NCBI RefSeq assembly: GCF_000299575.1
Contig: NZ_AMGO01000004.1
Location: 1-46,740 of the forward strand
DNA: 46,740 nucleotides
Direction of reading: 5' to 3'
Source: Oceaniovalibus guishaninsula JLT2003
Lineage (GTDB): Bacteria > Pseudomonadota > Alphaproteobacteria > Rhodobacterales > Rhodobacteraceae
The stretch's first letter is position 1, and every line of letters starts with the position of its first letter. Below are positions 12,872-30,474 of this stretch, piece after piece. The notes below the pieces were generated by a model that made no database searches, was not told the DNA's origin, and was given only the letters and a program-made list of their open reading frames with translations. A program made the translations under genes and the position numbers.

Positions 12872-12961
12872 GGAGAGGTGCCGGAGTGGTCGAACGGGGC
12901 GGTCTCGAAAACCGTTGAGGGTGCAAGCCCTCCCAGGGTTCGAATCCCTGTCTCTCCGCCA
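12872..12961 (+). tRNA. tRNA-Ser(CGA)
   Basis: The gene folds as a class II tRNA with a long variable arm. The acceptor is GGAGAGG paired with TCTCTCC (one G-U), the anticodon CGA lies at 12906-12908 in the loop CTCGAAA, the T arm is CAGGG-TTCGAAT-CCCTG, the discriminator is G, and CCA is encoded. Its 3' end doubles as the integration site of the adjacent element, which restores an intact 3' end. Confidence 0.96.
12945..12961 (+). other. attL (17 bp, 3' end of tRNA-Ser)
   Basis: TCCCTGTCTCTCCGCCA lies in the T-arm, acceptor and CCA of tRNA-Ser and is repeated exactly at 22219-22235. The copies diverge on both sides, so 17 bp is the full identity. A GACTTA motif just inside (about 12979-12984) recurs inside attR and could be an arm-type integrase site. 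Confidence 0.9.
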
Positions 12962-13028
12962 ATTCCATATAGATCAGTGACTTAATAGTTGGGCAGGCAA
13001 GTGCGACACAAAGTGGAGCACCACGCCC

Positions 13029-14597
13029 ATGAAACTGTCCGCCTTCCTTTCGCCGTCGCGCCACGGGGTTTACTATTTCCGCTGGCCCTTGCCTTCCCCA
13101 GACCGCCAAAGCCGACGCACCGTCAGGATTTCCCTTCGCACCAAGTGCCCAGATCGGGCTGGCGATCTGGCCCGTCATCTTGCATCATGCGGGCGATTGG
13201 TTCGGGATAACAAGGCATTGGCGAGGCTCAGGCAAGATGAGATGCGCGAGATGGTGCGAAGCTACTTCGCGGCTTCGCTGGATGCGTATGTTGAGAAGCT
13301 GAACGATACCGGCCTGCCGGATCGGTCCCTTGACCTGCTGCGCCAAGAACTTGCTGCCCACGCGGACGCCGCAGAGGGCAATGACGACCTGTCGGACATG
13401 TTCCTTGACCCAGACGCCTTCCGGGCCTCAGCGGGCCTCACAGACGCTCAGTGGACCGAGAACGCGCCATCTCTGCGCCAAGAGATGCGTAAGGCCCGCC
13501 GGGACCAGATCAAAGCCATTCTAAGCGCCGCTGAGAGCCTTGAAGGCTATTCCTTCACCAAGCCTGCCCAGACAGCGCCAAGGCCATCACAGACCCGCTC
13601 AGCGTCTCTGAGCGCGGCCATCGCAGATTTCAAAGCCGAGCATGGGCCGCAATGGTCACAGGAGATGCGGAACAAGGCGGATGCGTACCTTGCCTTGCTG
13701 GTGGAGCATTTCGGACCGGATCGCCCGATGGACCAGATCAGCCGCCAAGACGCCGCTGACATGAAGAAGCTAGTGCAGGCCCTACCGGCGAACCGCAAGA
13801 CCAAGCCCGAAACCCGCAATTTGAGTTTGCATGAAGCCATAGACGTTCCCGGCTTGCCCAAGATGGGCGTGAAGACTGTCAACAGTTACATCGACATGTT
13901 TCGCCGCTTCTGGGACTGGGCAGAACGCCACGGGCGCGCGCCCCACAAGCTGTTTGACGGCATGAAGGTTGCGAAGGCTAAGCAAGCCGCAGAGAAGCGC
14001 AAGGCGTACAGCAAGGAACAGCTTTCACGCCTCTTTGTCGAGTTGACGGAAAACCGCTCTGGGCTGGTCAAGAAGGACGATCACAAGTGGGGAACGCTTC
14101 TGGCCATGTTCACCGGGGCACGGTTGCGGGAAGTCGCGCAACTGGTGCCATCTGACATTCGGAGTGAAGGCGGCATCTGGTACATCGACATCAACGCGGA
14201 TGGTGAGAAGAAAAGCCTGAAGTCGCTTGCCGCCAAACGCCGGGTGCCCGTCCATTCGGAGTTGATCCGCCTTGGTTTCCTTGAATGGGTCGAAGGCTGC
14301 GGGAAGCAAACGCGCCTGTTCATGTCGTTCACGCACAACACCAAAGAAGGCTATGGCCGCAATCTGGGCCGCTGGTTCGGCACGTTCCTGACCAAGATCG
14401 GCATGAAGGATGACGGCCTTGTCTTCCACAGCCTGCGCCACACCGCGATTACCCGAATGCGTCAAGCCAGTGTCGAGTTGTCACTTGTGCAAGAGATCGT
14501 CGGGCATGAGCGCGACACCGTGACAGACGGTTACTTTGGCGAGGGCTACACACTGGCGCAGAAGAAGGACGCGATTGAGAAAATCACCGCGCGTTAG
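13029..14597 (+). CDS. tyrosine-type site-specific integrase
   Basis: This 522-residue recombinase should integrate and excise the element at tRNA-Ser. The N-terminus (SPSRHGVYYFRWPLP) resembles the DUF6538 domain of alphaproteobacterial island integrases. A core-binding domain spans about 190-300. The catalytic domain has Arg365 in TGARLREV, His467-xx-Arg470 in HSLRHTAITRM, His493 in VGHERD, and a C-terminal nucleophile, probably Tyr502. GGAG lies 10 bases upstream of the ATG. It begins 67 bases inside attL. Confidence 0.95.
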   Translation: MKLSAFLSPSRHGVYYFRWPLPSPDRQSRRTVRISLRTKCPDRAGDLARHLASCGRLVRDNKALARLRQDEMREMVRSYFAASLDAYVEKLNDTGLPDRSLDLLRQELAAHADAAEGNDDLSDMFLDPDAFRASAGLTDAQWTENAPSLRQEMRKARRDQIKAILSAAESLEGYSFTKPAQTAPRPSQTRSASLSAAIADFKAEHGPQWSQEMRNKADAYLALLVEHFGPDRPMDQISRQDAADMKKLVQALPANRKTKPETRNLSLHEAIDVPGLPKMGVKTVNSYIDMFRRFWDWAERHGRAPHKLFDGMKVAKAKQAAEKRKAYSKEQLSRLFVELTENRSGLVKKDDHKWGTLLAMFTGARLREVAQLVPSDIRSEGGIWYIDINADGEKKSLKSLAAKRRVPVHSELIRLGFLEWVEGCGKQTRLFMSFTHNTKEGYGRNLGRWFGTFLTKIGMKDDGLVFHSLRHTAITRMRQASVELSLVQEIVGHERDTVTDGYFGEGYTLAQKKDAIEKITAR

Positions 14598-14625: not shown

Positions 14626-15354
14626 TCAGGACGAAGGAGTGGGGCCAAACCGCATGGCCCCTTCCGCCATATAGGCAAAACGGCCTGCTTCGTCGCGGAT
14701 CGCTTCAAGCGCACTGGAAGTCATCGCTTCGTCGGTAACTTCAGCAATCCAGTCAGGATCAACCCTGTCAATGTCAATGCGTTCAAGGTTAGTCAGTTGG
14801 GCGAGGATAAATGCCGCGCCGTTGGTGTGCATATCAAGATCAGACAGCCGAAGGCGACATGCTTGCAGCGTTCCGTCGAATGCGCCAAGCGCGGCGGCTG
14901 CAAACTCTTTGTCGTCCACTTCGCGCTTCATTGCGTTGAGATACCCAAGATGGTGAATAGCAGCCGCATCTTGAACATGCTCCAAATCTTCAGACTGAGG
15001 CGCTTCATTGGGTTCATTTGCAGCAGGCTCACCCATAGGCGCGTTATCTTCGTGCCGGAGCGGAACAATGAAGTTGTCTTCCGCTCTCGGGTTCATTGCG
15101 CCCGCGCAAAAGGCGCTCACCACGAAAGCAACACCCAAGGGCATAACGAAAGCCAAGAGCAAGAAACCGGCAACGAGAAACAGCCACCAATACGCCCGGA
15201 ATAACCGCATGGTGCCAGTGGCGAGCAAGAGTTGCATTTGCAGGTTCCACCAATAGCGCCCGATCACGCCAAGGCTGGCACTTGCAGCCGCAACACCTTC
15301 GGTCGCAGCACCGTAGGCGATGTGGTGGTCTGGTGACTTGTTGTTGAGGCTCAT
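14626..15354 (-). CDS. hypothetical membrane protein of the element
   Basis: I do not recognise the family. The 242-residue protein has one or two close membrane segments at about residues 55-85 (YWWLFLVAGFLLLAF...GVAFVVSAFCAG) and a long soluble C-terminal part that is acidic and helical. The start at 15354 has GGAG 6 bases upstream; longer in-frame starts lack a ribosome site. It is transcribed divergently from the XRE regulator, which may control it. Its neighbours suggest a defence or maintenance role, but nothing in the sequence proves this. Confidence 0.65.
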   Translation of the reverse strand: MSLNNKSPDHHIAYGAATEGVAAASASLGVIGRYWWNLQMQLLLATGTMRLFRAYWWLFLVAGFLLLAFVMPLGVAFVVSAFCAGAMNPRAEDNFIVPLRHEDNAPMGEPAANEPNEAPQSEDLEHVQDAAAIHHLGYLNAMKREVDDKEFAAAALGAFDGTLQACRLRLSDLDMHTNGAAFILAQLTNLERIDIDRVDPDWIAEVTDEAMTSSALEAIRDEAGRFAYMAEGAMRFGPTPSS

Positions 15355-15491
15355 GGGGCGCTCCGACGGTGAGACTGACATGCGCCCCGGCACAGCCCTA
15401 AACTGGACAGCAAGGACGCTCAATATCCAGATTTTAGATACCTACTTTTGAGATATAGTCAATGCGCCCAGTGCAACAGCATGGGGCGTTC

Positions 15492-15734
15492 ATGCCTAAA
15501 ACTCTTGGAGATCATAGGCATGATGCTCTTGTCCGCTACCTCATCGAGAAGCGCGGAGAGGCAGGCTTGAAGCAGGTGGAACTTGCGGAGCGGATGAAGG
15601 TCTATCAGTCCTTCATCGCGCGGCTGGAAAGCGGTCAACGCCGCGTTGATGTGGTGGAACTGGTCAAGCTGAGCGAGGTGCTGGGCTTTGATCCAACCGA
15701 GATCGTGGGCAGGCTGGCGAGGATGTCGGACTGA
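15492..15734 (+). CDS. XRE-family transcriptional regulator
   Basis: This 80-residue protein is a single Cro/CI-type helix-turn-helix domain (LKQVELAERMKVYQSFIARLESGQRR). It resembles the small controller proteins found with restriction-modification systems and islands. An upstream in-frame ATG at 15462 sits only 2 bases after a TATAGT box and would give a nearly leaderless message; the 15492 start fits the family length better. It probably represses itself and the divergent membrane-protein gene through the AT-rich spacer. Confidence 0.85.
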   Translation: MPKTLGDHRHDALVRYLIEKRGEAGLKQVELAERMKVYQSFIARLESGQRRVDVVELVKLSEVLGFDPTEIVGRLARMSD

Positions 15735-15742
15735 GCCCGCCA

Positions 15743-15774
15743 CGGTCCCAGCTTATTTGCCCCAGTAATAGGGA
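15743..15774 (+). repeat. left copy of direct repeat flanking res-mod
   Basis: CGGTCCC, two extra bases (AG), then CTTATTTGCCCCAGTAAT and a G-rich end. A close copy lies at 20448-20476 on the other side of the restriction-modification genes. Twenty of 23 aligned bases match over the second part, and the CGGTCCC prefix is exact. Confidence 0.75.
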
Positions 15775-15826: not shown

Positions 15827-18451
15827 CTATGCGTCCAGCACCTCAGTCTCGAATGCGGCTTTGAAGTCAGTATTGGTCTGCCCCGTCTCATTGAAGAAGG
15901 GCAGCCCCAGAACGGTATAGTCCCGCCCTTGGAATACCGTTTCAAGTCTGGCCTTGGCTTTCACTTGCGCAAGGAAGTCCTGCTTCCAGTCGTCTTGCGG
16001 GCGCAACTGGTCGCCCTTGGGTTCGATGAATAGCTGCAAGATCGTGCTGGCTTGCTCGCCCTTCTTCCTCAGAAACAGAACGAAGTCGGGTTCAAAGGCG
16101 CGTCCTGTGTCGAAGTCGTACAGCTTCACCGCCTTCTCGTTCCGAAGCAGGTAGAAGTCGTCATATAAACCGCGCAACCGGGCTTCCTGATCGTGCATGT
16201 ACTTGATGAAGTGCTTTTCCTGATCGGTGCCATAGCTGTCGTCATAGGCGTGCCAGTCCTTGCCGCTCAGGTCGATCTGGTCCAGCCCCGGCACGTTGCT
16301 TTCGGTCCAGCTTAGCCCGGTCTCGCCTTCGATGCGCAGTTTCAGCACCTTGTCGGTGAAGCGGTCCTTGATGGGATAGGGCTTGAAGTCCTTGGTGCCG
16401 ATAAACTCGACACTTTCGCGTTTCACGCCGCTTTCGATCTGGTGCAGGACGTATTGCGCGATGTCCAGTTTTTGCCGCGCGGTCAGGTTGTCCAAGTCAT
16501 CGGGCAAGCCGCGCACACTCACTGTCACGCCGCCAAGATAGGTGTCAGAGGTGACAAACTGCGAGGCGCTGGCGAGTTGCGGGAAATAGGTCCGCAAGTT
16601 GGCGAAGTGGAAGAAGTCATTGGCATCCATCGCAAAGCCCAGAATGGCCCTGCCGAAGTCGGCCAGCTTGAAGTCGCGAGACACGGGTTCCTTGCTTGAC
16701 GGTTTCAGCGTCAACTGCCCACCGCCAAAGGCTGAGGCTTGTGTCACGCGGCCTGTCATCAGGTTGGGATAGGTGAAGGGGCCTTCGATCTTGTAGGCGT
16801 CCAGCCCTGCCACACCGTCGCGCGGGTTGCGCACCCGATCATTCACCCAGACATGATCCCGCTCATAGAGGTCAGTCTGCTTGAAGCTGTCCTTGAGCCG
16901 CAAGCGCACCGTCCGGGCAGTGTCATCGAGCATCCCTGTTTCGCGCAGGGCGTTGCGAATGTCTTGGATGTACTTGGGATTGTGGGAACAGTGGTAGTGC
17001 AGTTCCTCCAAGATGCGCAGGGGCGTGTCCACGGCGCTGTCGTACTTGCGCTTTTCCCGCGCCGCGTCGGGCTGGTCCGGGGCCATGAAGGGGAAGTACC
17101 GCGCTCCGCGCCCGATCAACTGCGCCTCGGCCATCGTGGTCTTGCCCACCTTGTTGGCCTTGCCGTCGCGGGTGTCGTACAGGCGTACAATGTCGAACAG
17201 GTTCAGAACGTCCCAGCCTTCGTTCAGCTTATCGACGGCAAAGATCACCCGTATCTCGTTGTCCCGGTCCTCCAAGGCGTTCAACTCAATCTGTCTGTTT
17301 TCCAAATCCTTGGGGTTGTTGACGTTCACCACCTTCTCGGGGGCAAAATCGCCCTGTAGCTCACGGGCGAAATCCGCGCCGCTCATGGCCCTTTCATCCA
17401 TGATGAAGGCAAAGACCCGCGAAAGCGTCTCATCGCCCTCAGAGGCCGCCCTGAGCGCGTCCAGCGCCTCGCCGGTCAGCCCGGCCACCATCGCAGTAAA
17501 CGCGGCTTCGTTGTCGGCGCTTTCCTTGATCGTCTTGGACTTCATCAGGATCACGGGCTTGCACTGCAGCCCATGCGCCTCGGCCACCTTGCGGCGGTAC
17601 TGGCTCAGAACCATCGCCTGCATCATCCGGGCCTCAGGCGGCAAATCGGCCTGCCGCAACTCGATGTCTTTGGAATAGCCGTCTTCGCGAAACTGCCGAA
17701 GCGAATAGTCGTAGAGTATCTTGTCGGCATACTTCGCCCGGATCGCCTCATGGCTCAGGTCCACGGTCGCGGTAAACTCCAACAGCATGTTCTCGGGGTG
17801 CTGGCGGAAAATCTCGGAAACAGTGCCTTCCCAACTGGCCTTCTCTGCCTTCTCGCCTTCCGTCAGCGTCTTCTTGGTCTCGGCGTTCAGGTGGTGCGCC
17901 TCGTCCGAGACCATCACCACCTTGTAGTCGCGGAAATCCTCGATGGTGACGGCATTCTCTTTCGGGTTCTGCATCCGGGTGTGCAGCCCTTGTATGGTGG
18001 TGAAGTGGATGTTGATCGCATCGCCTGACACCGCGTCGAAGGTGTCCACCGCGCGGATGTCCACGGGTTTGTCGTCAATGCGCACCGTGGGCGCGAACAG
18101 GTGTTTGGCCGATGCGGGGTTGAGGAAGTTTTCCTTGGTCTTCTCAATGATCTGAGCAGAGTTCACGAAGAACAGGAAGTTGCGATAGCCGCGCCGGTAC
18201 AAGTCCAGGATCAGCACCGCCATCAGCACCGTCTTGCCGCTGCCCGTGGCCATATGGAACAGCAGGTGCGGGGCCTTGGGCCGCGCCTCATACTTGTCGA
18301 TGTAGAACAGCCAGCGTTCAAGCGCCGTGTGTTGATAGGGGCGCAGGGTGATCTGTGGTGCAAGGTTGCCGGTGATGTCGTCGGGCAGGTCCGCTTTCAG
18401 CGCGCCATACTTGGCCAGCGCGTCAAACTCTTGGCTAAGCGTCTGGCTCAT
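15827..18451 (-). CDS. res: Type III restriction enzyme, Res (helicase-nuclease) subunit
   Basis: Res is the motor and nuclease subunit of a Type III restriction system; with Mod it cuts DNA carrying unmodified, inversely oriented sites. The 874-residue protein has an SF2 helicase core with GSGKT at 70-74, DEAH at 183-186 and a motif VI-like [12 protein letters not shown]. The C-terminal PD-(D/E)xK nuclease is present: Pro788-Asp789 in FEPDFVLFL and Glu810-x-Lys812 in FIEPKG. Nothing is truncated. Its start overlaps the mod stop by four bases. Confidence 0.95.
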
Positions 18452-20385
18452 CTGTCCAGCCCATAGAAAGAGCGGGTGGCGCGGGCGTCTTCGTCCGAAA
18501 TGTCGAAGTCCGCATCGCCAAGTGAGCCGAGATTGACATAGAGGTGGTTGGCATCGAGGCAGTCCATCAGCACGCGCTTGGCGTCATCCAGTGGAAGCGT
18601 TGCGAGGTCGTCGGTGTCGAAGGCGCTCAGGTCCACGTCATAGCGCAGATAGCCGGTGGCTTGGATGTCGGCATGGATGGTTTGCAGCGCGGCCATGTCC
18701 GGGGCCGCTTCGATCCGGTCGGCAAAAGCCGAGTTGGAAGCCGCGAGTTCGGCATAGACAAACGATCCGCCACCTTGCCACTCGACGGCTTTGGAAATGC
18801 CGCCCTGTTCACCTTCGATGACTTTCTTGAGGCGTGATGCGGGCAACTCAAGAATGTAATCCATCTGTTCAACGGCGATCCAGCGACGGCCCATCTTGTG
18901 CGCAACTGCGGCTGTCGTCCCTGAACCGGAATAGAAGTCCAAAACGATGTCACCGGGATTGGTGGCAATGTGGACAATGCGCTGTAACAGTCGCTCAGGC
19001 TTTGGCGTGAAGTCAGACGCTTCGTCGGAACCGACGATTGCATTTAGCTCCTTCTTTGCCTGTTCGTTTGTCCCTGCGTCTTGATGTGCCCACCAAGTCG
19101 ATGACTGAATACCGTTTTCGTCCTTGAGGTATTTCTTGCGTCTCGGTTGATTGCTTCCATCCTTACCGAACCAAAGGCGCTTCTCTTTCTCAAGGATGCG
19201 GTATTCATCCTCCGTTACTTTCCAGCAATAACCTTCTGGCGGATAGAACCGGTCGCCAGACGGCGAAGTGATCCAGTACATCTGATTTTCACGGCCCCAC
19301 TTGCCATTTTTCTTTTGGTTCTGGGCAGTGAAGTCTCTATGAACCCAAGGGCCTTTCGGGTCATTGTCTGGGTTTTTATATTCCGCGCGTTGCTTGTCTG
19401 TCATGGGCAAGCGATTGGCGCTTTCCTCAAAGATCGTCTTAAAAGTGCCGTTCGACCGCTTGGTTGTGCCTTGCTCACGGGCAAAGACAAGAATGTTGTC
19501 ATGTGAGTTGCCAAGGATAACACGGTCGTCGGGTGAAGTTCTCTTTTGCCATGCAATATGTGCAACAAACTTTTCACGTCCGAAGACCTCATCCATCATC
19601 ACTTTCGCGTAGTGTACTTCCGTATCATCCAGTGTGACGAAGATAGCACCATCGCGGGTTAGCAGCGACTTTGCGATTTCAAGTCGCCCCTTGAAGAAGG
19701 TCAGCCAAGCCGAGTGATTGAAGCGGTCATTGTACCGGAACCCGTCATTGCCGGTGTTATAGGGCGGGTCGATGTAGATCAGCTTCACCTTGCCCGCGTA
19801 GCGCGCTTTCAGGGAATGCAGCGCCAGCAGGTTGTTGCCCTTGATAAGCAGGTTGTCGTCCTCTGACACCTCGCCTACGGGCTTGGACTTGCCCTCTGCC
19901 ACAGCCTCGCCGTCCCAGCGTTCCCAGCCGGTCAGCACCTTGGGCTCAAACAGCCGCGTGATGTCGTCCGGGGCCAGCGTCGTGTTCCAGAAGACCTCGT
20001 TCCGGCCCCGGTCCTCTTTCGTCATGCCGCCTTCCAGCACGCAATCCTTGTAGGGCCACGCCAGCACCACGTCGCGCGACTGGCTCAGGTAATCGCCGCG
20101 CCCATCAGTCAGGCCGATGCGGTTCTTGAAGGCAGTGTAGCTGTCGGGCAGGAAGGCTTTGTTGGACACGAAGTCCTGAAACTTCACCTTGTCGAAGACC
20201 AGCGCGCCCGCCACCTCGGTGAAGAAATGCGCCTTGATCGTGTCGGACTGCATCAACAGTTCCAACAGCCGCGCATCCATATTCAACGCCGCCTCGATCA
20301 CCGCGTTCTTGAGGATTGCCCCGTCCGAGATGAACGCCTGTTCGGCTTGGAGAAGCGCCGTCAGGTCATCGAGAAGGTTCTGCAT
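18448..20385 (-). CDS. mod: Type III DNA modification methyltransferase, Mod subunit
   Basis: Mod recognises the target site and methylates adenine, protecting host DNA and guiding Res. The 645-residue protein is a beta-class N6-adenine methyltransferase: DPPYNTG at 206-212 precedes FYSGSGTT at 484-491, with the target-recognition domain of about 250 residues between. The recognition domain decides specificity and cannot be read from sequence. No simple repeat tract suggesting phase variation is visible in the gene. Confidence 0.95.
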
Positions 20386-20447: not shown

Positions 20448-20476
20448 CGGTCCCTTATTTGCCCCGGTAATGGGAA
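20448..20476 (+). repeat. right copy of direct repeat flanking res-mod
   Basis: CGGTCCC runs directly into TTATTTGCCCCGGTAAT and a G-rich end, matching 15743-15774 apart from a two-base gap and a few substitutions. It lies 63 bases upstream of the mod start, so it could also sit in the mod promoter region. Confidence 0.75.
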
Positions 20477-20498: not shown

Positions 20499-21830
20499 TC
20501 AGCGCAGGGCGTAGGACCGGGTGACTTTGACAGTGGGAACCTGCCCAAGGCGGGCCTTGAAGGTGTCCTTCATCACCTGCACCAGTTCCCGTTCCAGATG
20601 GGCCTGCACGATGAAGGCGTCATGGATGGGCAGGATCGCATGACCTTGCCTTACAAAGTGCAGCATGATCGCCTCTGCAATGTCGCTTTCCAGCCGTTGC
20701 AGGGTCAGGCCCTTGTCGGTGCCCAGCATGGCAGGAACCATCGGGAAGGCGTCCAGCACCTTGGCGCGAAAGCCCTCTGCCGTCATGCCCCACCGGGCGC
20801 TGTCGAAGTTGCGGGGTTCTTCGGTAGCGCCTGTCTTGGCGTTCAGCAAGGCCGCAAGAGTGGCCTTGGCATGGTTCCGTAGATCACCGGGCGCATTCGC
20901 CCCCACTATGGGAGAATAAGGGTCATCCGGTATGGGCTGGCCCGCCTCGGCCAACAGCACCGCCGGGTTGAAGCCCCGGAAGTCCGCTTCGATGGTATGC
21001 TGCCCGTCTATCGTGATCTTGGGCCGCGCATGTTTCTTGATGTTTTGCCACCACCCGCCATAGAACCGGCCTCCGTGGTCGAAGCTGTCCCGATTGAAGA
21101 CCCGATGCAGCCTCACCTTCCGGCCTTTGTAGTCGGGTTTCTTGTCGTGGATCGTTAGCGGCTGCGTTGTATTGATCTCGGACACCTCCAGCTTTGCGTT
21201 GATCTCGGCCAGACGCGCCCGCATCGCCACTGTCCCGAGTGTGTCATCGTATCCGCAAAGCCGGTCTTCCATATTCTTCAATCGGATGGTCTCTCTGCCC
21301 CGGTCCACTTTGAAGTCGGCAAAGGTCCAATCCTCAACTTGCAGTTCGCTTTCGCCTTTTTCGGTTAATGCAAAACGGCTAGTCTGACTGTGGCCGGGAA
21401 GATTAAAGCCGCGCTTGACCATCTCGATAAGGCCAGCTTTGACAAGCCAGTCCTGCACTAGTACGAACCGATCAGCGGTCATGTATCTTGGCCGGTATCG
21501 CCTTTCACGGTCCAAAGCGCCTTGACCGCGATACATACCTATTGTCGTTGGCCACTTGTTGCACTTTGTGCGCATCAGGTTTGCAAGGATTGCACTGCCG
21601 CAGTCGATAAACTTCTGTTCAGTAACTCGGCTCGGTTTGCGGTGCGGGAAAGACGCAGCCCATTCTGCGCATACGTCATCCATGAGCAAGTCGATAAGGT
21701 TTTGTGCATCGGGGTTGGATGCCACAAGATAGGGTTCAAACGCCCACGACTGATCCCCAAGTTGGCTGGGCAGCTTCGCGGCTAAAGCTGCTGCCTTGAG
21801 GGCAAAGGGATGTTTCGGCTCATCAGTCAT
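20499..21830 (-). CDS. element protein with family-A polymerase-like motifs
   Basis: No named family was recognised. From the ATG at 21830 the protein has 443 residues; an ATG six codons earlier is possible and neither has a clear ribosome site. The C-terminal half contains, in order, GRFYGGWW, an acidic EADFRGFNPAVLL segment with Asp283, RNHAK with Arg318 and Lys322, and LPIHDAF with Asp404. This order (Asp; RxxxK; His-Asp) is that of motifs A, B and C in DNA polymerase I and T7-type RNA polymerase, in a shorter spacing. The N-terminal half looks helical and partly winged-helix-like. A replication or copying role for the element is an inference. Confidence 0.6.
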   Translation of the reverse strand: MTDEPKHPFALKAAALAAKLPSQLGDQSWAFEPYLVASNPDAQNLIDLLMDDVCAEWAASFPHRKPSRVTEQKFIDCGSAILANLMRTKCNKWPTTIGMYRGQGALDRERRYRPRYMTADRFVLVQDWLVKAGLIEMVKRGFNLPGHSQTSRFALTEKGESELQVEDWTFADFKVDRGRETIRLKNMEDRLCGYDDTLGTVAMRARLAEINAKLEVSEINTTQPLTIHDKKPDYKGRKVRLHRVFNRDSFDHGGRFYGGWWQNIKKHARPKITIDGQHTIEADFRGFNPAVLLAEAGQPIPDDPYSPIVGANAPGDLRNHAKATLAALLNAKTGATEEPRNFDSARWGMTAEGFRAKVLDAFPMVPAMLGTDKGLTLQRLESDIAEAIMLHFVRQGHAILPIHDAFIVQAHLERELVQVMKDTFKARLGQVPTVKVTRSYALR

Positions 21831-21942
21831 CGCAAAATCTCGGGACATTTTTTCGTGGCCCAATCTATACATCGCCACGGACCAACTTCCCCCATACCCC
21901 ACCCATGCAGGCAGGGATACGCCCCGGCTCGCAACCCGGCCT

Positions 21943-22080
21943 CACCATAGGACAGAAGAAGCGTCAACTGTCGGCACCCGCACCACCTGTACAGGACAAG
22001 AACCGCCGCGTCGTGACCCGCCGCCACTATTGGACGAAGGGAAAGCCAAGGCGGCATTCGGGCCACCTATAGGACGATGG
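21943..22080 (+). repeat. iteron-like direct repeats upstream of the polymerase-like gene
   Basis: Four degenerate copies of a CACCTATAGGACGAAGG-like unit are seen, with their GGAC cores at 21950, 21994, 22032 and 22072, spaced 38-44 bp, close to four helical turns. They lie in the gene-free stretch between the polymerase-like gene and attR (21831-22218). Such spacing suggests binding by one protein, perhaps an origin or an autoregulatory site. The copies are imperfect, so this is moderate evidence. Confidence 0.5.
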
Positions 22081-22218
22081 GAAGGCCACCTGAGCGACAC
22101 CCAGCGGTTGACAGAAACGGCACTTGCGGACCATAAGTGGGGCGTCAAGTGAGACACCAGAGCAACCTTCGCGCTTGGATGTCCAGTTAAGTCAACGACT
22201 TACGAAAATGGTGGATTG

Positions 22219-22235
22219 TCCCTGTCTCTCCGCCA
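22219..22235 (+). other. attR (17 bp)
   Basis: Exact copy of the 17 bp tRNA-Ser 3' end at the right limit of the element. Just inside lies TAAGTC-AAC-GACTTA (22188-22202), a perfect 6 bp inverted repeat that may be an integrase arm site. Beyond it the sequence should be the original downstream flank of the tRNA gene. Confidence 0.88.
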
Positions 22236-22560: not shown

Positions 22561-24366
22561 CTAAGCTTGCCGGAGGCGAACTCGAAGCGGGTTTGCGTAC
22601 TCACCGTTCCGATCCCAAAGGCGTCGTGCGCGATCAGATATGGCGAAAAGGAACGGGTTCCGAAGATCGGCTTCACCAGCGAGGATGATGAGGTGCGCTT
22701 GAGCACGGGACGCGGCAACGTTGATGAGCCGACGACCGGTCTCGCTGTTCAGAAACGGGCTCCCAGCATCGACGGGATCGAATATCACGATCTTTCGCTC
22801 GCTACCCTGTGCTCGGTGGACTGTACTGACACGAACTTCCTTCTGCCCCTGGCGTCCAAGCATCGACCTGATGAGCGCGCGCTGAGCGCGGAACGGTGTA
22901 AGGATCAGGATGTCGTCTGCTTCAACGTAGGATCCGAGCAGCTCGTGGACCAAGGCGGCGATGATTTCGGCGGATGCGAAACGGATCTTGCCATTGTACT
23001 TCTTCGACCAGGTCGCGTCGCCTGCACGGTCGTCTATGAGTACACGCGGTATCTCTCGACCATCGAGATACCATGGAGAACGAGCTCGCTTCCATTCCGG
23101 ATCTCGAGCGGCTTTTCGGCATACAATGAGCTCGCCACCGTAGAATGTGTGCGAAACGATATCGCAGACGCCTTGGCACATCCGCGATTGCTCATTGAGG
23201 AAGACGCTGGGAGCATCCTTGAAGACGTCAAACGCTGTCTTGCCGAGGATCGCTTGCGTTGACAGATCGTCGCTTTGGACGATTGGAGCAAGCTGTTGCG
23301 GGTCTCCAGCAAACGTGGCGCATTTCGCGATGCTGGCGACCATCAGAGCCGCCGGCAACATGATCTGACTGGCTTCATCAGCGATTGTGAAATGCCACGC
23401 CCCAACGCCGGGGTTCGCGATGCTGTCGAAGTGGCGGAATAGGGAGTTGGTCGTGATCGCGACCACGCGCGAAGGAGCTGAGATGTGCGCGACATCCGTC
23501 TTCAGCTTGGCTCGCGCAGCCTCCAATTTCTCTTTCCAGGCGACGTAGCGCTCGATGTCGCTCTTCGACGGCTCCTCGAGCTCCAGCATGCTGATTTCCA
23601 GAGACGCCTCATAGATGCCCTTCGCGAGCAAATGATCACGACCGCGGAATTTTTGCGTGTCGAAACGGGAGCCTATCCGCTTCATGGACTGTCGGAGATC
23701 GTTACGACCAATTCGAGTTAACCAGTCATCCGCGGCAATCAGCGCCGAATCGACTGCCGTGTTTGTTGGGCCGCTGACGAGAATCTTCGCGTTCGTGAAC
23801 CGGGTTAGCAAATACGCTATCATGCAGCCAATCGTGAACGTCTTGCCAGTGCCGGGCGGCCCATGAAGCAATCCCACGCGGTTCAACGGCAGTGAGACAG
23901 CCTGCACCTGCCGAACGCGGAGCATAGAAAAACCCGCGGGAAGCGCCTTCGTTTCCGCTGCGGGCTCTTTCTCACTCCGGCGTAGAGCCGCAGCAGCTTT
24001 CTTCCTGGTTCGCTCCCGCTGCCATAATTCAATGAGTGGCGTGATGAAGTCCTGGGGATAAAGTGTGACGCGTTCATCCGCGTCCGGGAGTGGGCCCTGG
24101 ACGAAGCGAAGGGCAAACTCGCCTTTGTCGGGGTCGACAACAACGACCTCCCCCCTGCCGCCGGCCTCACCGTACCAAACTGCGCGCGAACCCTCGAGAC
24201 TTTCATCAAGCGCAGCACTCGAACGTCCATCGCGCATGGGTTCGACGGCAAGAACGACAAGATTTGCTTGCCGCCGTGACGACAAGACCTTGAACGGCAG
24301 CCCGCGCTGCGCCGCTGTTCGCTCGTCCTCAAGAGCAGACAGAATCTTGTCCGCAGTGATAGCCAT
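22561..24366 (-). CDS. SF1 helicase, UPF1/DNA2-like, stand-alone
   Basis: This 601-residue protein is a superfamily 1B helicase related to IGHMBP2/UPF1/DNA2. It has GPPGTGKT at 169-176, DEAS at 330-333, GDPQQLAPI near 354, HRAQGSER at 517-524 and the ASRA motif VI at 551. The first 140 residues form a beta-rich region like the 1B domain of this group. No nuclease or accessory domain is fused. The start MAITADKIL has GGGA 6 bases upstream. It stands alone between two mobile elements, a position common for defence genes, but no partner gene is visible. Confidence 0.88.
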   Translation of the reverse strand: MAITADKILSALEDERTAAQRGLPFKVLSSRRQANLVVLAVEPMRDGRSSAALDESLEGSRAVWYGEAGGRGEVVVVDPDKGEFALRFVQGPLPDADERVTLYPQDFITPLIELWQRERTRKKAAAALRRSEKEPAAETKALPAGFSMLRVRQVQAVSLPLNRVGLLHGPPGTGKTFTIGCMIAYLLTRFTNAKILVSGPTNTAVDSALIAADDWLTRIGRNDLRQSMKRIGSRFDTQKFRGRDHLLAKGIYEASLEISMLELEEPSKSDIERYVAWKEKLEAARAKLKTDVAHISAPSRVVAITTNSLFRHFDSIANPGVGAWHFTIADEASQIMLPAALMVASIAKCATFAGDPQQLAPIVQSDDLSTQAILGKTAFDVFKDAPSVFLNEQSRMCQGVCDIVSHTFYGGELIVCRKAARDPEWKRARSPWYLDGREIPRVLIDDRAGDATWSKKYNGKIRFASAEIIAALVHELLGSYVEADDILILTPFRAQRALIRSMLGRQGQKEVRVSTVHRAQGSERKIVIFDPVDAGSPFLNSETGRRLINVAASRAQAHLIILAGEADLRNPFLFAISDRARRLWDRNGEYANPLRVRLRQA

Positions 24367-24499
24367 CAATATCCCGACCTGGAACCAAAGGGGCAGCACG
24401 AGCCCCTTCCTGACGGCAGGATAGTGCGGGATCGCAAGTCACCGCAATCAAAAGAAAAACGGTATCTGCGTTCTTTCCAGGATCTGATCGACAGAGAGT

Positions 24500-24886
24500 T
24501 CAGTCAGGATCAAACACCCGTCCCGGCTGCTCTTCCCACGGCAGAGACGCGACGAAGCACAGGTCGTAGATGCTGATCGTCGAGGGCTCTCGGTGGACGA
24601 CCAACCGCTCGAGGACGTCAGGCGCGAGCCATGCGAGGCGCATCAGACGGCTGACGTAGCGATCGGACAGGCCCTCGTCGCCGGCCAGATCGCTGAGCGT
24701 GGCAACGTCGCCGCGTTCCAGCCGCTGCCGCCAGCCCCATGCCCGGCCAATGGCGCGCAGGAGGTGCGGATCCTGCCCGTGGTCCATGGCGGCCTCGACA
24801 TGCTTCGGCGGCAGAATGCGGGGGCGGCCGCCGCGGCGGCGGAGTTCGAGCGGGATGACGATGCGCAGGGTCTCGGGCTGGGGCAT
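24500..24886 (-). CDS. HTH protein downstream of the serine recombinase
   Basis: The 128-residue product has a ParB/HTH-like centre (LSDLAGDEGLSDRYVSRLMRLAWLAPDVLERLV) and a basic start. Proteins of this sort follow large serine recombinases in many alphaproteobacterial prophages and may act as a recombination directionality or accessory factor; that role is unproven. Its ATG overlaps the recombinase stop by one base (TGATG). Confidence 0.8.
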   Translation of the reverse strand: MPQPETLRIVIPLELRRRGGRPRILPPKHVEAAMDHGQDPHLLRAIGRAWGWRQRLERGDVATLSDLAGDEGLSDRYVSRLMRLAWLAPDVLERLVVHREPSTISIYDLCFVASLPWEEQPGRVFDPD

Positions 24887-26208
24887 CAGGCGACCTCCTT
24901 CTTCGGCGGAGCCATCAGCGCGGCGATGGCTCCGAGGCCTTCGTGACGCAGGTCGATGGCAAGGCCCGCCTCGCTTACCGTGATGCGCGCGACCAGCAGC
25001 TGGACGATTCGCGCCTGCTCGGCCGGGATGAGCGCCTTCCACAGGTCGTCGAACTGCGCCAGCGCGGCGAGAACGGTGGTCTCATCGAGATCGGGGCGGT
25101 CCTTCCGCACCGCTCGCGCGGTGCGCGCCGCCACCTCCGGCGTGCGCAGCATCCGGCGGATTTCGCCGATGACTGCATCCTCGACCATGGCACCCGGCAG
25201 CCGCTGCGGCCCCCGTAGCTCAGCCGCCGGGCGCTTCCGGATCACGTCCATCGAGGTGTAGTAGCAGTAGCGCTTTCCTTTCCGCTTGGTGTGGTGGGGC
25301 GTCATGGCCGCACCCGTCTCGGTGAAGATCAGCCCGCGCAGGAGCGCTGGCTGCGCCGCGCGCGCCACCGCCCCGCGGGCGACGCGGTTGTTGGCGATGA
25401 CGGCGTGGACCTCGTCCCACAGCTTCTGGTCGATGATCGCCTTGTGCTCACCGAGATAGACCTCGTCCTTGTGCACCGCGAGGCCGAGATAGACCTTGTT
25501 GTGCAGGAACTTCAGCAGGTAGCCCCGGTCGAACACTGCGCCGCGCTTGGTGCGGATCCCGCGTGCGTGCAATTCCTTTAGCACCTGCGCGGTGGAACTG
25601 GAGCGGGCGTAGAGGCGGAAGATCGTGCGGACCTGCTCGGCCTCGACTGGCTCGATCACCAGCTTGCGGTCCTTCACCACATATCCGAGCGGAACCGGCC
25701 CGCCCATCCACATGCCCTTCCGGCGCGAGGCCGCAAACTTGTCGCGGATGCGCTCGCCGATCACCTCGCGTTCGAACTGGGCGAAGCTGAGCAGGATGTT
25801 CAGCGTCAGGCGGCCCATGGACGTCGTGGTGTTGAAGGACTGGGTGACCGAGACAAAGGTGACGCCGTGGCGGTCGAAGATCTCGACCAGCTTCGAGAAG
25901 TCCATCAGCGCGCGGCTCAGGCGGTCGATCTTGTAGACCACGACCACGTCGATCAGCCCGGCCTCGATGTCGGCGATCAGCTGCGTCAGCGCGGGCCGGT
26001 CCAGCGTCCCGCCGGAAAAGCCACCGTCGTCATAGCGGTCCCGCAGCGCCACCCAGCCCTCGGCGCGCTGCGAGGCGATGTAGGCCTCGCAGGCTTCCCG
26101 TTGGGCGTCGAGGCTGTTGAACTCCATGTCGAGCCCTTCCTCGCTCGACTTGCGTGTATAGATGGCGCAGCGCAGGCGGCGGACGGGTTCGAGCTTTGCG
26201 CGGCTCAT
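24886..26208 (-). CDS. large serine recombinase
   Basis: This 440-residue recombinase should integrate and excise the prophage. The resolvase domain carries the catalytic Ser21 in YTRKSSEEG, DRYDDGGFSGGTLDRP and KIDRLSR. A recombinase domain follows from about residue 160 (MGGPVPLGYVV...), then a zinc-ribbon-like or coiled region (the expected cysteines are not obvious). The start at 26208 overlaps the DUF2924 stop (ATGA). The longer open frame to 26319 is a shadow of DUF2924. Confidence 0.93.
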   Translation of the reverse strand: MSRAKLEPVRRLRCAIYTRKSSEEGLDMEFNSLDAQREACEAYIASQRAEGWVALRDRYDDGGFSGGTLDRPALTQLIADIEAGLIDVVVVYKIDRLSRALMDFSKLVEIFDRHGVTFVSVTQSFNTTTSMGRLTLNILLSFAQFEREVIGERIRDKFAASRRKGMWMGGPVPLGYVVKDRKLVIEPVEAEQVRTIFRLYARSSSTAQVLKELHARGIRTKRGAVFDRGYLLKFLHNKVYLGLAVHKDEVYLGEHKAIIDQKLWDEVHAVIANNRVARGAVARAAQPALLRGLIFTETGAAMTPHHTKRKGKRYCYYTSMDVIRKRPAAELRGPQRLPGAMVEDAVIGEIRRMLRTPEVAARTARAVRKDRPDLDETTVLAALAQFDDLWKALIPAEQARIVQLLVARITVSEAGLAIDLRHEGLGAIAALMAPPKKEVA

Positions 26209-26705
26209 GAGCGGGCCTCCGCGCCATGGGCCAGCCCGAAGAACTTCCACCCGTTCCAGTGACTGCCGGTGATCGCCCGCACTGCGGCCGAGAGCGACTT
26301 GAAGCGCCGCCCCTGCCATTCAAAGCCTTCGGTCAGCACCGTGACGACCTGCTCCTCGCCCTGCCATTCGCGCACCAGCTTGGTGCCGGGGATCGGGCGG
26401 CGGGGATCCGCGATCAGCGGGCCCGGCGCGCCCGTGGCGACCTCTGCCGCCAGCGCATCCAGCGTGCGGCGTGTGGCGGGCTTGATGCCGCCATGGGCCA
26501 GTTCCTGAATGCGATAGCCGATACGCAGCTCCAGGTTCCCACGACTGGCGTTGGGGGCGTGCTCGCCGAACATCACCCGCCACTTGCTCTGCAATTCGGG
26601 CACCGTCATCGCCTTCAGCGCCGCCAGTTCGGCCAGGACGTCAACCTCCGCCGCCTGGCCGGTGAGCGTAGCCTTTGCGCCTGATTTCCTTGCGTTTTTC
26701 TTCAT
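26205..26705 (-). CDS. DUF2924 protein
   Basis: This 166-residue basic protein fits DUF2924: a helical N-terminus (VPELQSKWRVMFGEHAP), then a C-terminal PGTKLVREWQG...GFEWQGRRFKSLSAAVRAITG...WNGWKFFGL segment like a small DNA-binding domain. The gene sits directly before the serine recombinase in this and other prophages, so it probably helps recombination. Both ends overlap neighbours by four bases. Confidence 0.9.
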   Translation of the reverse strand: MKKNARKSGAKATLTGQAAEVDVLAELAALKAMTVPELQSKWRVMFGEHAPNASRGNLELRIGYRIQELAHGGIKPATRRTLDALAAEVATGAPGPLIADPRRPIPGTKLVREWQGEEQVVTVLTEGFEWQGRRFKSLSAAVRAITGSHWNGWKFFGLAHGAEARS

Positions 26706-26959
26706 GCGTCGTCTCCAACTCGGTTTTGCACCTGTCTCCGACGACGGCGTCTGAGGGCGAGAATGTCCAGCGAACTGTCTCCGTCGAGCGGAGAATTTTC
26801 GTTCATTTCCCGTGGGTTGGTGCGCGCGACGGTGCTGGCGAGGATGGCGGCCAGTTCCGCCAGCCGCTCATCGGTCGTGAGCGTCTCGGCGGGTGGCGCG
26901 AAGGCGATGTCGTCTTGCATGGGGAGCGAACCTCCTGAGGCGGTTTGCTCCGTGTTCAC
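26702..26959 (-). CDS. small protein, first gene of the recombinase module
   Basis: The 85-residue product is acidic at the start and ends in a run of arginines (LRRRRRRQVQNRVGDDA). I recognise no family. Its stop overlaps the DUF2924 start by ATGA, which supports real translation; an internal Met at residue 14 could be the actual start. It opens a four-gene unit with DUF2924, the recombinase and the HTH gene. Confidence 0.65.
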   Translation of the reverse strand: MNTEQTASGGSLPMQDDIAFAPPAETLTTDERLAELAAILASTVARTNPREMNENSPLDGDSSLDILALRRRRRRQVQNRVGDDA

Positions 26960-27051
26960 CGCGCGTGGCGATGGATTTCAAGTTAAAACAAGGGGTTGTC
27001 GTATGCCCGCGTGCTCACGCGTAGCTTATGGTATCCAACGACGACATGACG

Positions 27052-29486
27052 TCAGACGCCAATCTGGGCAACATTCAGGTTCGCGATCGCCGTTTCTACT
27101 TCGGTGTAAAGGTCAGCCTCAACGTCACCGGCATCCAATTCAACGACAAGTGCAAAGCGCGCCGCCTTCCGGTCGACGTTCTGAACCGACTTGGATTTCC
27201 ACCATCCCGCCACTGGTTGGACGGCGAGGAGATTTCGCTGTGCGAGATCCGAGGCAGGACAACGAAGCTCATCGATGTGCAGGGAACCCACGTCACGCCA
27301 GTTGCGACCGAAGATCCAGCCGTCATTGTCGGCTACCGGATCGGCATCCGAGTCATCGGCCAGCTTGTTTATCCGTGCCTGGAATTGCGCCCGGTTCTCG
27401 TTGGCTCGGTTCAGCTTGAACCGCAGATTATGGGAGGCATAGCGGAATTTCGAGCCGCGAGCCGCTTCCGAAGGATTGGGTTCGACAAAAGTGCTGAGTG
27501 CCACGCGAAGAGTGACCTCCGTCGCACCCAGCTGCCGGAGCGCCTCTCTTGGCCAAGGCAGCTGGAAAAATTTCATCTGGTTGTGGACGGGCTCGGCTCC
27601 AGCGGTGGCGCTTGGCCGGTACGGAGTGATCGTGTCTTGAACGATGAGGGACAGAGCATTTTCGGCGCTACGCCTTGCGCGCGCCTGATCGGGCACGCCG
27701 TAGCCGTATCTCTGAAACAGTCGTACGAAGTCGCCCTTTGAAGGATTTGCCGGAAGGTGCGCCTCCATCTGCCGCGTCCATCGCGCAGACGAGACGAAAA
27801 TCGCCCGGATCGTTTCCGGCCACAGGTGTGGGTAGTCTTCCCAAAGCTCGGTGATCGCTTTGGCTGCCAGCGCCGTCGCGGCGCTTGTGTCAGCAGTCGT
27901 CGTAAGCGACCGCAGTGGGTATTGATGGTCCGTGGTAAGCAGCGAGAGCGCCGGGTGACTCAATGGCGGCGGAAGGTGATCTTGAACCCAGTTTCCGCCC
28001 TCCATCACGATGTCGGGCTTGATCGGCCAGTGTTTCGACCAGCTTGCGGTGCGCGACGAAGGTGCCAGATCGCCTGCAATAGCAACGGCCTGCCCGGGCA
28101 GGCCAGCAGGCATCCTCACCTTTTCGGTGTAGGCGCCGACACAGATAGAGTTCCAAGCCTGTGCCGGAGATTCAATCTCGTGGTCGGGGTCGTCGCAAAC
28201 CGAAAGGTATTCACCTCCCTGGAAGCGGTTCTGGTCAGTGTTGCCTGCGGAAAGCACGAATAGCCGCTGTCGATTCTGATTGCCCGACACGCCAGCTGTC
28301 AGCTGATCGATTTCGCTCGACCATGAAGTCGGTGCGCCGTCATGAGGTGTGTCTTCGTCGGTCGTGCTGGCCATCGAAAACGTTCGGCCGCGCTCGGCAT
28401 TTGCCTCGACCGCGTTGACAGCATTGAGCACTACGGCTCCCAGCAGATGGTGAGGGTTCTGGCCAGCATCAGGGATGATCTTGGCAGACTCGAGCCGATG
28501 CCTGACATGAACCGGCATGTTGCTTTGGATCACTGGCAGCAGGTCTCCGTAGAGCGAAAGGCCCGCCAACTGTGTGCCGTGCCCACGGCTGTCGTCTAGA
28601 CTCCAGCCCGGTTCCGCTGCGTGGCGGTCGGCCGGGTCAAGGAAAGGTCGAATCAAGGGATGATTCAGCCCGATGCCGCTATCGAGGAGCGTGATGCATC
28701 GCGGATCCGCAGCGTCGGGGGGCTGCAATAGATCCTCCATCGCTCGCGCCCACTCAGCCTGTTCTTCAGGCGGCATTCCTTCGAAAAAGTCGGATAGGAC
28801 CGTGGGCGCGGCGAGAGCTTTCACTGTTCCATAATGGCGAACAGCCTCGGCGATCTGGTCGTGGGTGCCATAACCGATGACGACAACGTCCTCGGGGAAC
28901 TGCAGACGATCGGCCTCGAAACGGATCCCGAGAGCGTTTGCCCGCTCAAGAAATTGGTCGGCTTCGTTTCTTTCTAACCATATCTCCCAGGGATGGACCG
29001 GGCCCTGAGCGGGAAATCTCGCATGCGGGCTCCGCCAGAGGGCGCGCAGTCCTGCTTCGACGATGGCCGAGATGCTTTGCACGAAATCCGCGTTTTTTGG
29101 CCTACCCTTCTTCGTGTTCTCGTCTTGGAAGGCCTGGACCTTCTTCCGCAGACTGCTTACGCCGGTTGGCGACGCGAAACGGTTGCACGGGCCGGAGCTG
29201 CTTCATTCTCGGGGTCGGTAGAAACCTTTAGAAGACGGAGGCCGCTGGCATCCAGGCTCTTCGTCACAAAGGGTTCGTTCGGCCTCGCTTGGATCTCGAG
29301 GTAGACACCGGGGCGGTCCTGCGCGGCCAAATTGCCGATCTCGTCAATCGCTCGGAGGAGCGCCTGCGCATGTGCGCGGCGGTTCGGTACGTCACTCGGT
29401 CGCCTTGGCTGACCTCCGCCCTTGGCCTGAAACGCGACCGCCTGTCCGAGGTTGTTTACGATCAGATGAGGGCGATTTCGTTCCAT
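27052..29486 (-). pseudogene. ietS: IetS-like subtilisin (S8) protease, one frameshift
   Basis: IetS is the protease partner of the IetA ATPase in a two-gene phage-defence and plasmid-incompatibility system. The N-terminal part (MERNRPHLIVNN..., 29486 down to a stop at 29157) and the protease part are in different frames; the protease frame reads TGVSSLRKKVQAF directly opposite the break, so one event (minus one or plus two bases) near 29160-29175 separates them. The protease part holds the triad: Asp in TLLDSGIG, His in RGHGTQLAG and Ser in DTSAATALA, and its C-terminus is complete. If the shift is real, translation would need frameshifting or an internal GTG at 29082. Confidence 0.82.
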
Positions 29487-30474
29487 TCGGCAATGTTCCA
29501 AGTCCCTGTAACGAACGCCTGCGTTCCATCGAAGCGATCAGCGTGTCCGTCAGAATTCGGTCTGTCGAGGACAAGACAGCGCGTCTTCCCGCATCTTCGC
29601 CCGCAGCAACAACATCTGCCGTCGAAAGGCCTTCCGCAACCCTAGATACAGCGTCCCAGTCCACATCATCGACGTTGAAGCCGATCAGGCGCCGCCGCAT
29701 CGCCTTCTGGACGGCTTCCCTTGAGGGCAGCTCATAGGGCAGCACCAGTTCGAAACGCCGAAGGATTGCCCTATCGAGAATTTCAGGAATATTGGTGGTG
29801 GCGACAACAATCGAAGGGCCAGTATCTTCATCGAGGAACTGCAGAAACGAGTTCAGAATTCGCCTAGCTTCGCCAACGTCGTTTTCGTTTCCACGGGAAG
29901 CCGCCAGCGCATCAATCTCATCGAACAGATAGACACCGCGCGTTGTGCGGATGGCATCAAAGATCAGGCGCAGTTTCTGCGCAGTCTCACCCTTGAATTT
30001 GGTTATGAGTCCGTGCAGAAGCACCGTGAACAACGGGAATTTTAGCTCTCCGGCCAATGCCTCGGCGCTCAGGGTTTTTCCTGTCCCAGGCGGACCGGAA
30101 AAAAGAAGGCGTCGGCGTGGATGCAGGCCCTTTTCCTCCAGAAGGTCACGTTTCCGAGTCTCGACAACGATCTGGCGCAATTCGTCGGAGAGGTGGTCTG
30201 GTAAGATCAGATCGCTGAGAGTGGTTGTCGGATATCGTGCACCCAGGATGCCGGCGAGATCGCCGCGCGGCGCGGCCAGCGGTGTCAGCTTTGCAGTAAC
30301 ACTGGTCTTTGGAACGCGCGATGCCTCCGCCCACTGGCGCAGCTGTTCCGCCAGTCGAGTGTGCCCACGCTGCTCTTCCGCGGCGGCAAGCTGCATCGCG
30401 AGATCGAAGAAACGCTCTTCGTCCCCCTCCGCGTGGCTCTTTACAAGCCCGATAAGTTGCTGTGCCGACGCCAT
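29392..30474 (-). CDS. ietA: IetA-like AAA+ ATPase
   Basis: This 360-residue AAA protein begins with a helical domain typical of the family (LIGLVKSHAEGDEERFFDLAMQLAAAE). It then has GPPGTGKT at 127-134, DEID at 185-188, a sensor-1 ATTN and an arginine-finger region. With IetS it forms the defence pair tested in published screens and first seen on Agrobacterium plasmids. AAGG lies 7 bases upstream of the ATG. Its last 95 bases overlap the start of ietS in another frame, so the two are tightly coupled. Confidence 0.88.
   Translation of the reverse strand: MASAQQLIGLVKSHAEGDEERFFDLAMQLAAAEEQRGHTRLAEQLRQWAEASRVPKTSVTAKLTPLAAPRGDLAGILGARYPTTTLSDLILPDHLSDELRQIVVETRKRDLLEEKGLHPRRRLLFSGPPGTGKTLSAEALAGELKFPLFTVLLHGLITKFKGETAQKLRLIFDAIRTTRGVYLFDEIDALAASRGNENDVGEARRILNSFLQFLDEDTGPSIVVATTNIPEILDRAILRRFELVLPYELPSREAVQKAMRRRLIGFNVDDVDWDAVSRVAEGLSTADVVAAGEDAGRRAVLSSTDRILTDTLIASMERRRSLQGLGTLPNGTKSPSSDRKQPRTGGRVSGQGRRSAKATE

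Follow-up and report, generated by a model that had tools for sequence, protein, structure and literature searches.

A probable TV-Pol with the motif set of family-A DNA polymerases in a tRNA-bounded integrative element of Oceaniovalibus guishaninsula JLT2003

Why should a small integrative element seated in a tRNA gene carry a protein with the motifs of a DNA polymerase? The question is raised by the window, the whole stretch of 46,740 nucleotides analysed here (contig NZ_AMGO01000004.1 of Oceaniovalibus guishaninsula JLT2003), in which a 9.3-kb element at a tRNA-Ser gene encodes a 443-residue protein that is very probably a TV-Pol and is so named below. A sequence-only reading had placed at 20499-21830, in the order of motifs A, B and C of DNA polymerase I (PolA) and T7 RNA polymerase (RNAP), the segment EADFRGFNPAVLL with Asp283, RNHAK (Arg318, Lys322) and IHDAF (Asp404). 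Both the coordinates and the residues are correct; the reading frame is on the minus strand, from 21830 down to 20499, and the plus strand is broken by stops. The spacing is also shorter, as it had claimed, with 35 residues from motif A to the Arg versus 49 in PolA of the window's own class, and 82 versus 121 from the Lys to the motif-C Asp. The presence of a family-A motif set in a protein of 443 amino acids (aa) is therefore confirmed as an observation. The features of the gene are as follows, with conservation counted in the 75-row alignment described below.

20499..21830, minus strand: TV-Pol gene, 443 aa plus stop; AlphaFold model, Foldseek matches in the PDB, purifying selection
21351..21713, minus strand: N-terminal domain, residues about 40-160, winged-helix-like in a separate model compared by Foldseek
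20517..21110, minus strand: polymerase core, residues 241-438 (palm with small fingers), from hhalign to 69 PolA sequences
21066..21071, minus strand: Gly254-Arg255, counterpart of the TGR motif (hairpin Arg), 75/75, aligned with TGR of PolA
20982..20984, minus strand: Asp283, motif A, 75/75, aligned with the D of DYS in PolA
20922..20924, minus strand: Asp303, fingers Asp, 73/75
20865..20879, minus strand: Arg318-x3-Lys322, motif B / O helix, 74/75 and 75/75, aligned with R-x3-K of PolA
20619..20624, minus strand: His403-Asp404, motif C, 75/75 each, aligned with VHDEL of PolA

A relationship to the family-A DNA polymerase superfamily is supported by significant profile and fold matches with the motifs in register. 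A 125-sequence alignment of the family (111 sequences after the hhalign filter) was compared with 69 PolA sequences, those passing a motif and length filter among 100 loci (L134-L233), and matched them at E 3.1e-7 (probability 93) over 192 columns; the reversed control gave E 0.42 and the best of 20 column shuffles E 0.032. An earlier run with 20 PolA sequences of the window's class and realignment off had been weak (E 0.0065, probability 6). In the significant alignment GGR falls on TGR, QN on QNIP, D283 on DYS and R318/K322 on R-x3-K, followed in the C-terminal part by a DSDIAE stretch on an AADI stretch and by IHDAF on VHDEL. The AlphaFold2 model built with the 75-row alignment (mean predicted local distance difference test, pLDDT, 91.2; predicted TM-score, pTM, 0.85) has 61 Foldseek matches in the PDB at E <= 1e-3 (best E 2.8e-5), and the best 50 of these are all family-A DNA polymerases, most at probability 1.00; with query-normalised TM-scores of just 0.25-0.33 and root-mean-square deviations of 5.7 to 21, the fold match is significant but partial. 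The profile search and the structural comparison proposed in the sequence-only reading have thus both come out in its favour. The best eleven matches in the Foldseek viral library are proteins of 400-450 aa, with E down to 4e-23 and one of them named DNA polymerase, and the next is the DNA replication protein of the Zamilon virophage (E 7e-4), which we take to be a TV-Pol like that of Sputnik. Sequence searches gave no family for the protein in Pfam, NCBIfam or PADLOC (E <= 0.001 for the last) and chance-level matches only in the PDB (phmmer and profile); its PHROGs match is phrog_4756, a family of unknown function (E 1e-38).

The gene has a single match in its own 2.9-Mb genome, and relatives occur in 40 of 295 genomes sampled from the same family and in 24 of 385 from the class, a few genomes, that of the window among them, being counted in both samples. 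A pattern scan of genome contigs gave 361 confirmed stretches, the best 80 of which were kept as 76 loci, mostly alphaproteobacterial by their titles. The alignment used for conservation has 75 rows, the window protein and 74 relatives, loci L073 and L122 of the 76 not being included. No row departs from G254, R255, R269, D283, Y305, K322, H403 or D404; R318 is retained in 74 rows, E281 and D303 in 73 each and N330 in 72. The set takes in the columns at which family-A polymerases have TGR, motif A, the RxxxK of the O helix and motif C, and the conservation among homologues on which the sequence-only reading had made itself depend does hold. In a second, partly overlapping set of 51 rows, which excludes self copies (L001, L002), duplicates and open reading frames (ORFs) of <240 aa, D283 is kept in 49/50, R318 in 48/50, K322 in 50/50 and D404 in 49/49 of the rows with a letter there. 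The ratio of nonsynonymous to synonymous substitution is 0.14-0.20 against eight close relatives (L058-L065); the gene is under purifying selection. A copy identical to the window's (L001) lies in a 33.5-kb contig classed as viral by IMG/VR.

The sequence-only reading had recognised no family name and had called the protein uncharacterised. This does not stand, as the features fit TV-Pol, the family first described by Iyer, Abhiman and Aravind in 2008 (PMC2579912) as predicted primase-polymerases of mobile elements. That study defined TV-Pol by a two-helix thumb, a hairpin Arg, a palm with two Asp, and fingers with an Asp and RxxxK, reported it from alphaproteobacteria (Loktanella, Roseovarius nubinhibens and Paracoccus among others), and named gamma-delta resolvase, lambda-type integrase and restriction-modification (R-M) operons as its neighbours. 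In our protein the palm has D283 and D404, both invariant and aligned with motifs A and C of PolA; the invariant R255 lies in strand 249-257 of the model, after strand 242-246; and the fingers have D303, R318 and K322, with a helix at 315-329. In the model a single long helix (198-216) and a short one (157-163) precede the palm, where the TV-Pol thumb has two antiparallel helices. Integrase, resolvase and R-M genes are all found in the neighbourhood, the tallies of adjacent genes drawing on 125 of the 189 ORFs collected upstream and 126 of the 198 collected downstream. A search of Microcystis phage Ma-LMM01, a published TV-Pol phage, gave no match at E <= 10. Among its ORFs of 250-1100 aa, in 150 of the 162 kb, the best hmmsearch value was E 0.83; the best ORF by hhalign, which adjoins annotated transposases, reached only E 0.014. 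On features and context taken together we have little doubt that the protein is a TV-Pol.

The N-terminal domain is a probable winged helix by its predicted structure. Residues 1-187 modelled alone reached pLDDT 88.9, and nearly all of the best 50 Foldseek matches of this model (E 0.02-0.17) are MarR, PadR or similar regulators, which are winged-helix proteins, the exceptions including a ribosomal protein and FokI. In PHROGs, residues 98-161 matched a transcription regulator (E 0.015), and the profile search of the PDB returned two transcription regulators at E 0.6-0.8, ranked behind two unrelated chance-level matches. To judge by the model, the domain probably binds DNA.

The element around the gene had been described as a tRNA-targeting restriction element, and rightly so: it carries a type III R-M operon and measures 9,274 bp between 17-bp copies of the tRNA-Ser 3' end, the attachment (att) repeats. 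The fraction of G and C is 0.64-0.71 outside the element and about 0.56-0.60 within it, and TV-Pol is the last recognised gene, at the end opposite the integrase.

12872..12961, plus strand: tRNA-Ser(CGA), the integration target (ARAGORN)
12945..12961, plus strand: att repeat 1, 17 bp at the tRNA 3' end, with an exact copy at 22219-22235
13029..14597, plus strand: tyrosine integrase (Phage_integrase, Pfam E 9.9e-14)
14626..15423, minus strand: cargo ORF of 265 aa without a Pfam match, with relatives in 5/76 loci
15462..15734, plus strand: XRE-type (HTH_3) regulator (Pfam)
15827..18451, minus strand: type III restriction subunit, res (Pfam; PADLOC REase_III E 2e-153)
18448..20385, minus strand: type III modification methylase, mod (Pfam; PADLOC MTase_III E 9.9e-172)
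22219..22235, plus strand: att repeat 2 (exact repeat), the far element end, 388 bp upstream of the TV-Pol start

At nine same-genus loci with this tRNA (L239-L247), no copy of the integrase-side DNA (12962-13400) was found in the 1-1.5 kb beyond the tRNA; relatives gave few matches of the element's right flank, so a true empty site is not shown.

The same arrangement recurs in relatives. ARAGORN found 49 tRNAs in the 76 loci, and a search for a 14-25 bp copy of the tRNA 3' end elsewhere in the locus succeeded for 28, one per locus; the same search gave 2/49 for tRNA 5' ends, 2/49 for tRNA middles and 11/980 for random 25-mers. TV-Pol lies between both copies in 28/28 of these bounded loci, which span 5.9 to 13.4 kb and target nine tRNA types (Cys, Ser, Ala, Val, Met, Pro, Tyr, Leu and Gln); their number is a lower bound, since contig ends or the limits of the fetched flank truncate many of the 76 loci. 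When the 187 proteins of the bounded elements (ORFs >= 80 aa; all elements found via TV-Pol) were clustered, an integrase cluster was present in 28/28, 27 of them via a profile from the window's integrase, followed by methylase in 9/28, another cluster in 9/28 and res in 7/28; to the second 9/28 cluster belongs the L075 gene upstream of TV-Pol, the end of which reads as a serine resolvase. The integrase is thus the sole other constant gene of these bounded elements. Among the other 103 cargo proteins of >= 120 aa, restriction, methylase and gamma-delta resolvase families lead the Pfam matches (25 of 52 families listed); one of these proteins has a Cas1-family match (E 7.5e-28). Across all 76 loci, where the counts are limited to fetched flanks, many of them cut by contig ends, relatives of the window's genes were found for the integrase in 43, mod in 18, res in 9, the XRE regulator in 9 and the 265-aa ORF in 5. 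In L058 and L062-L065 res is 91-96 percent identical to that of the window, mod 65 to 97 percent and TV-Pol 78 to 87 percent; mod seems, from these identities, to have been exchanged independently of its partner.

What TV-Pol does for such an island may be approached through CCPol, which is counted as a TV-Pol and, according to PMC7581432, primes DNA when bound to its partner MP. By this analogy, and from the steady company of an integrase, we lean towards the view that TV-Pol starts replication of the excised island. The integrase would excise the 9.3-kb element between its two 17-bp att repeats as a circle; TV-Pol, a putative minimal family-A polymerase whose palm has only a very small fingers insertion and is preceded by a winged-helix-like domain, would recognise the element via that N-terminal domain and start DNA synthesis on the circle, either making a primer or extending one. 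In this way the circle would not be lost, and host enzymes would complete its replication. The analysis establishes the motifs, the profile and fold matches, the purifying selection, the ends of the element and the company of the integrase; we infer a polymerase or priming activity, that the protein transfers nucleotides and makes primers, that it binds DNA and where, and that the element is excised and its circle copied. The Glu five residues after the motif-A Asp of PolA has a role in sugar selection, and its absence here, together with an HDS or HDA motif, would suit primer synthesis with loose sugar selection.

Several points weigh against such a role. Because the 28 elements were picked out by their TV-Pol, its presence in all of them is by itself no proof that it is needed. 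No replicative helicase was recognised by Pfam in the window element or among the 25 of 52 Pfam families listed for the 103 cargo proteins, whereas CCPol and the D5-linked TV-Pols do have a helicase; CCPol moreover needs its partner protein for priming (PMC7581432). The winged-helix assignment is weak, with no Foldseek match of the N-terminal domain at E <= 1e-3, and activity in this branch of TV-Pol is predicted only. Rheinheimera phage Barba35A has a TV-Pol-like gene (L235, 8602-9909) about 3 kb from its annotated primase and DNA polymerase, and since the phage has its own enzymes, the TV-Pol relative there is unlikely to be a replicase; in a Vibrio phage a relative lies among structural genes. 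Finally, a Thermus mobile-element primase-polymerase, which need not be related to TV-Pol, is reported to be dispensable for replication of its element (PMC7693054).

The same Thermus enzyme lends some weight to the proposal that TV-Pol is a defence or accessory enzyme acting on invading DNA or on the ends made by type III restriction, with no part in copying the element: mutants lacking it were 100 to 1000 times better at taking up DNA from the environment (PMC7693054). Consistent with this proposal, TV-Pol precedes mod and res on the same strand in the window and in several relatives, the cargo of the elements is rich in R-M genes, and at least one phage, Barba35A, has a TV-Pol relative beside its own polymerase. 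The counts tell another story, as mod relatives occur in 18/76 loci and res in 9/76, against 43/76 for the integrase and 28/28 in bounded elements; by gene company, TV-Pol goes with the integrase and not with one defence system, and no PADLOC model matches it at E <= 0.001. We consider a defence role unlikely. Chemistry closer to that of T7 RNAP than to PolA is a different matter, and would make TV-Pol mainly a primase or a short-transcript RNA polymerase using ribonucleoside triphosphates. The residue five after the motif-A Asp is His in 60, Asn in 12 and Gln in 3 of the 75 rows and never Glu, which is invariant in PolA; motif C is HD followed by Ser (64), Ala (10) or Gly (1), as in the HDS of T7 RNAP; and RNA_pol (PF00940) is the sole Pfam family matched by more than one homologue at E <= 1 (7/75, best E 0.031). 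The family profile, significant with PolA, is not so with 76 T7-type RNAPs (E 0.054; those with an HDSFG motif among 78 loci), a comparison made uninformative by the failure of the positive control, PolA against T7 RNAP (E 0.31). The best 50 of the 61 PDB matches being DNA polymerases without exception also speaks for the PolA side, and we hold an RNA polymerase-like enzyme to be quite unlikely.

A palm protein that has lost catalysis and serves purely as a regulator, binding DNA to control excision or the operon, would accord with the winged-helix-like N-terminal domain, with an activity that is so far a prediction, and with the stop codons present in some TV-Pol matches from genome searches. 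A dead protein, however, would not need both catalytic Asp and the RxxxK Lys, which are invariant in the 75 rows, or the nearly invariant Arg, and the selection on the gene is purifying; we regard this explanation as very improbable.

Some further observations concern the DNA of the element and its surroundings. A 21-nt near-repeat (90 percent; 15752-15772 and 20454-20474) flanks the mod-res operon and may mark the edges of a cassette or operator sites. Upstream of TV-Pol, both in the window (21940-22090) and in L059 (7740-7892), there are degenerate repeats around CCTATAG with a spacing of about 40 bp; they are suggestive in relatives, yet not clearly above chance in the window. An iteron array upstream of TV-Pol is not claimed, as the window has 21 matches versus 14.0 expected, 3/100 shuffles equalled this, and a repeat search found none. 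About 90 bp adjoining the att repeat upstream of TV-Pol are conserved across several of the loci L059-L070, including elements whose TV-Pol is just about 45 percent identical to that of the window, and are perhaps integrase arm sites. To the right of the element a second island (22561-30474) encodes an SF1-type helicase, a large serine recombinase, a DUF2924 protein and, as a pair, a subtilase and an AAA protein that match the defence proteins IetS/IetA.

The TV-Pol family has been known since 2008, when it was proposed to stand near the ancestor of PolA and T7 RNA polymerase (PMC2579912), and CCPol was in 2020, to the knowledge of the authors of PMC7581432, the only TV-Pol biochemically characterised. 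Our additions are modest: the ends of a two-gene island are defined, and the N-terminal domain is read as a winged helix. Literature searches led to the 2008 paper, to those on the SCC primases and to surveys of viruses; judged by the titles and abstract openings listed, a description of tRNA-bounded TV-Pol islands was not among them, most subscription papers being beyond the reach of the search. The 443-aa protein of the window is a confidently modelled representative: its motifs are intact, the ends of its element are known exactly, and 28 of its relatives lie in bounded elements. It makes both the primase prediction and the post-excision replication of small tRNA islands directly testable, mostly in alphaproteobacteria.

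Bacterial DNA polymerase I shares motifs A, B and C and the TGR and QNIP-like stretches with our protein and includes its closest solved folds; unlike PolA, TV-Pol has no room for exonuclease domains, has far smaller fingers, lacks the Glu after motif A and has HDS or HDA in place of HDE. The TV-Pols of PMC2579912 likewise have a minimal family-A core in mobile-element proteins of 400-600 residues, with an extra N-terminal domain in a subset. That domain was uncharacterised and predicted to be all-helical, whereas the model here has strands and is winged-helix-like (possibly another domain); and one element there was flanked by direct repeats of about 200 nt and replicative transposons were proposed, in contrast to the 14-25 bp tRNA-derived att repeats found here. 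The CCPol-MP and PolA-SSB primases of SCC elements (PMC7581432, PMC10061031) also place a family-A palm, with primase activity predicted or shown, in an integrative element. Unlike them, with their adjacent OB-fold single-stranded DNA-binding protein and helicase, the window element has no such partner recognised by Pfam, its matches being integrase, XRE, res and mod, although OB folds are hard to see by sequence. Islands in tRNA and tmRNA genes (for example PMC12595487) resemble the element in their tyrosine integrase, direct repeats, defence cargo and lack of recognised transfer genes; the Pseudomonas islands of that study differ in having AlpA at the far end, and a term search of its main text returned neither 'DNA polymerase' nor 'primase'. 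A parallel in organisation is offered by the pipolins, which according to PMC7385651 lie mostly at a tRNA gene, have tyrosine recombinases, att repeats and, commonly, R-M components, and share only the polymerase gene and the att sites; their polymerase, piPolB, is of family B and ours of family A, and the likeness does not imply that the elements share an ancestor. It is conceivable, and we propose it tentatively, that TV-Pol elements are the family-A counterpart of pipolins: tRNA islands of 6-13 kb whose only constant genes would be a tyrosine integrase and one protein fusing a winged-helix origin-binding domain to a minimal primase-polymerase, a single polypeptide that might recognise the circle and start its replication without a dedicated helicase or a separate primase.
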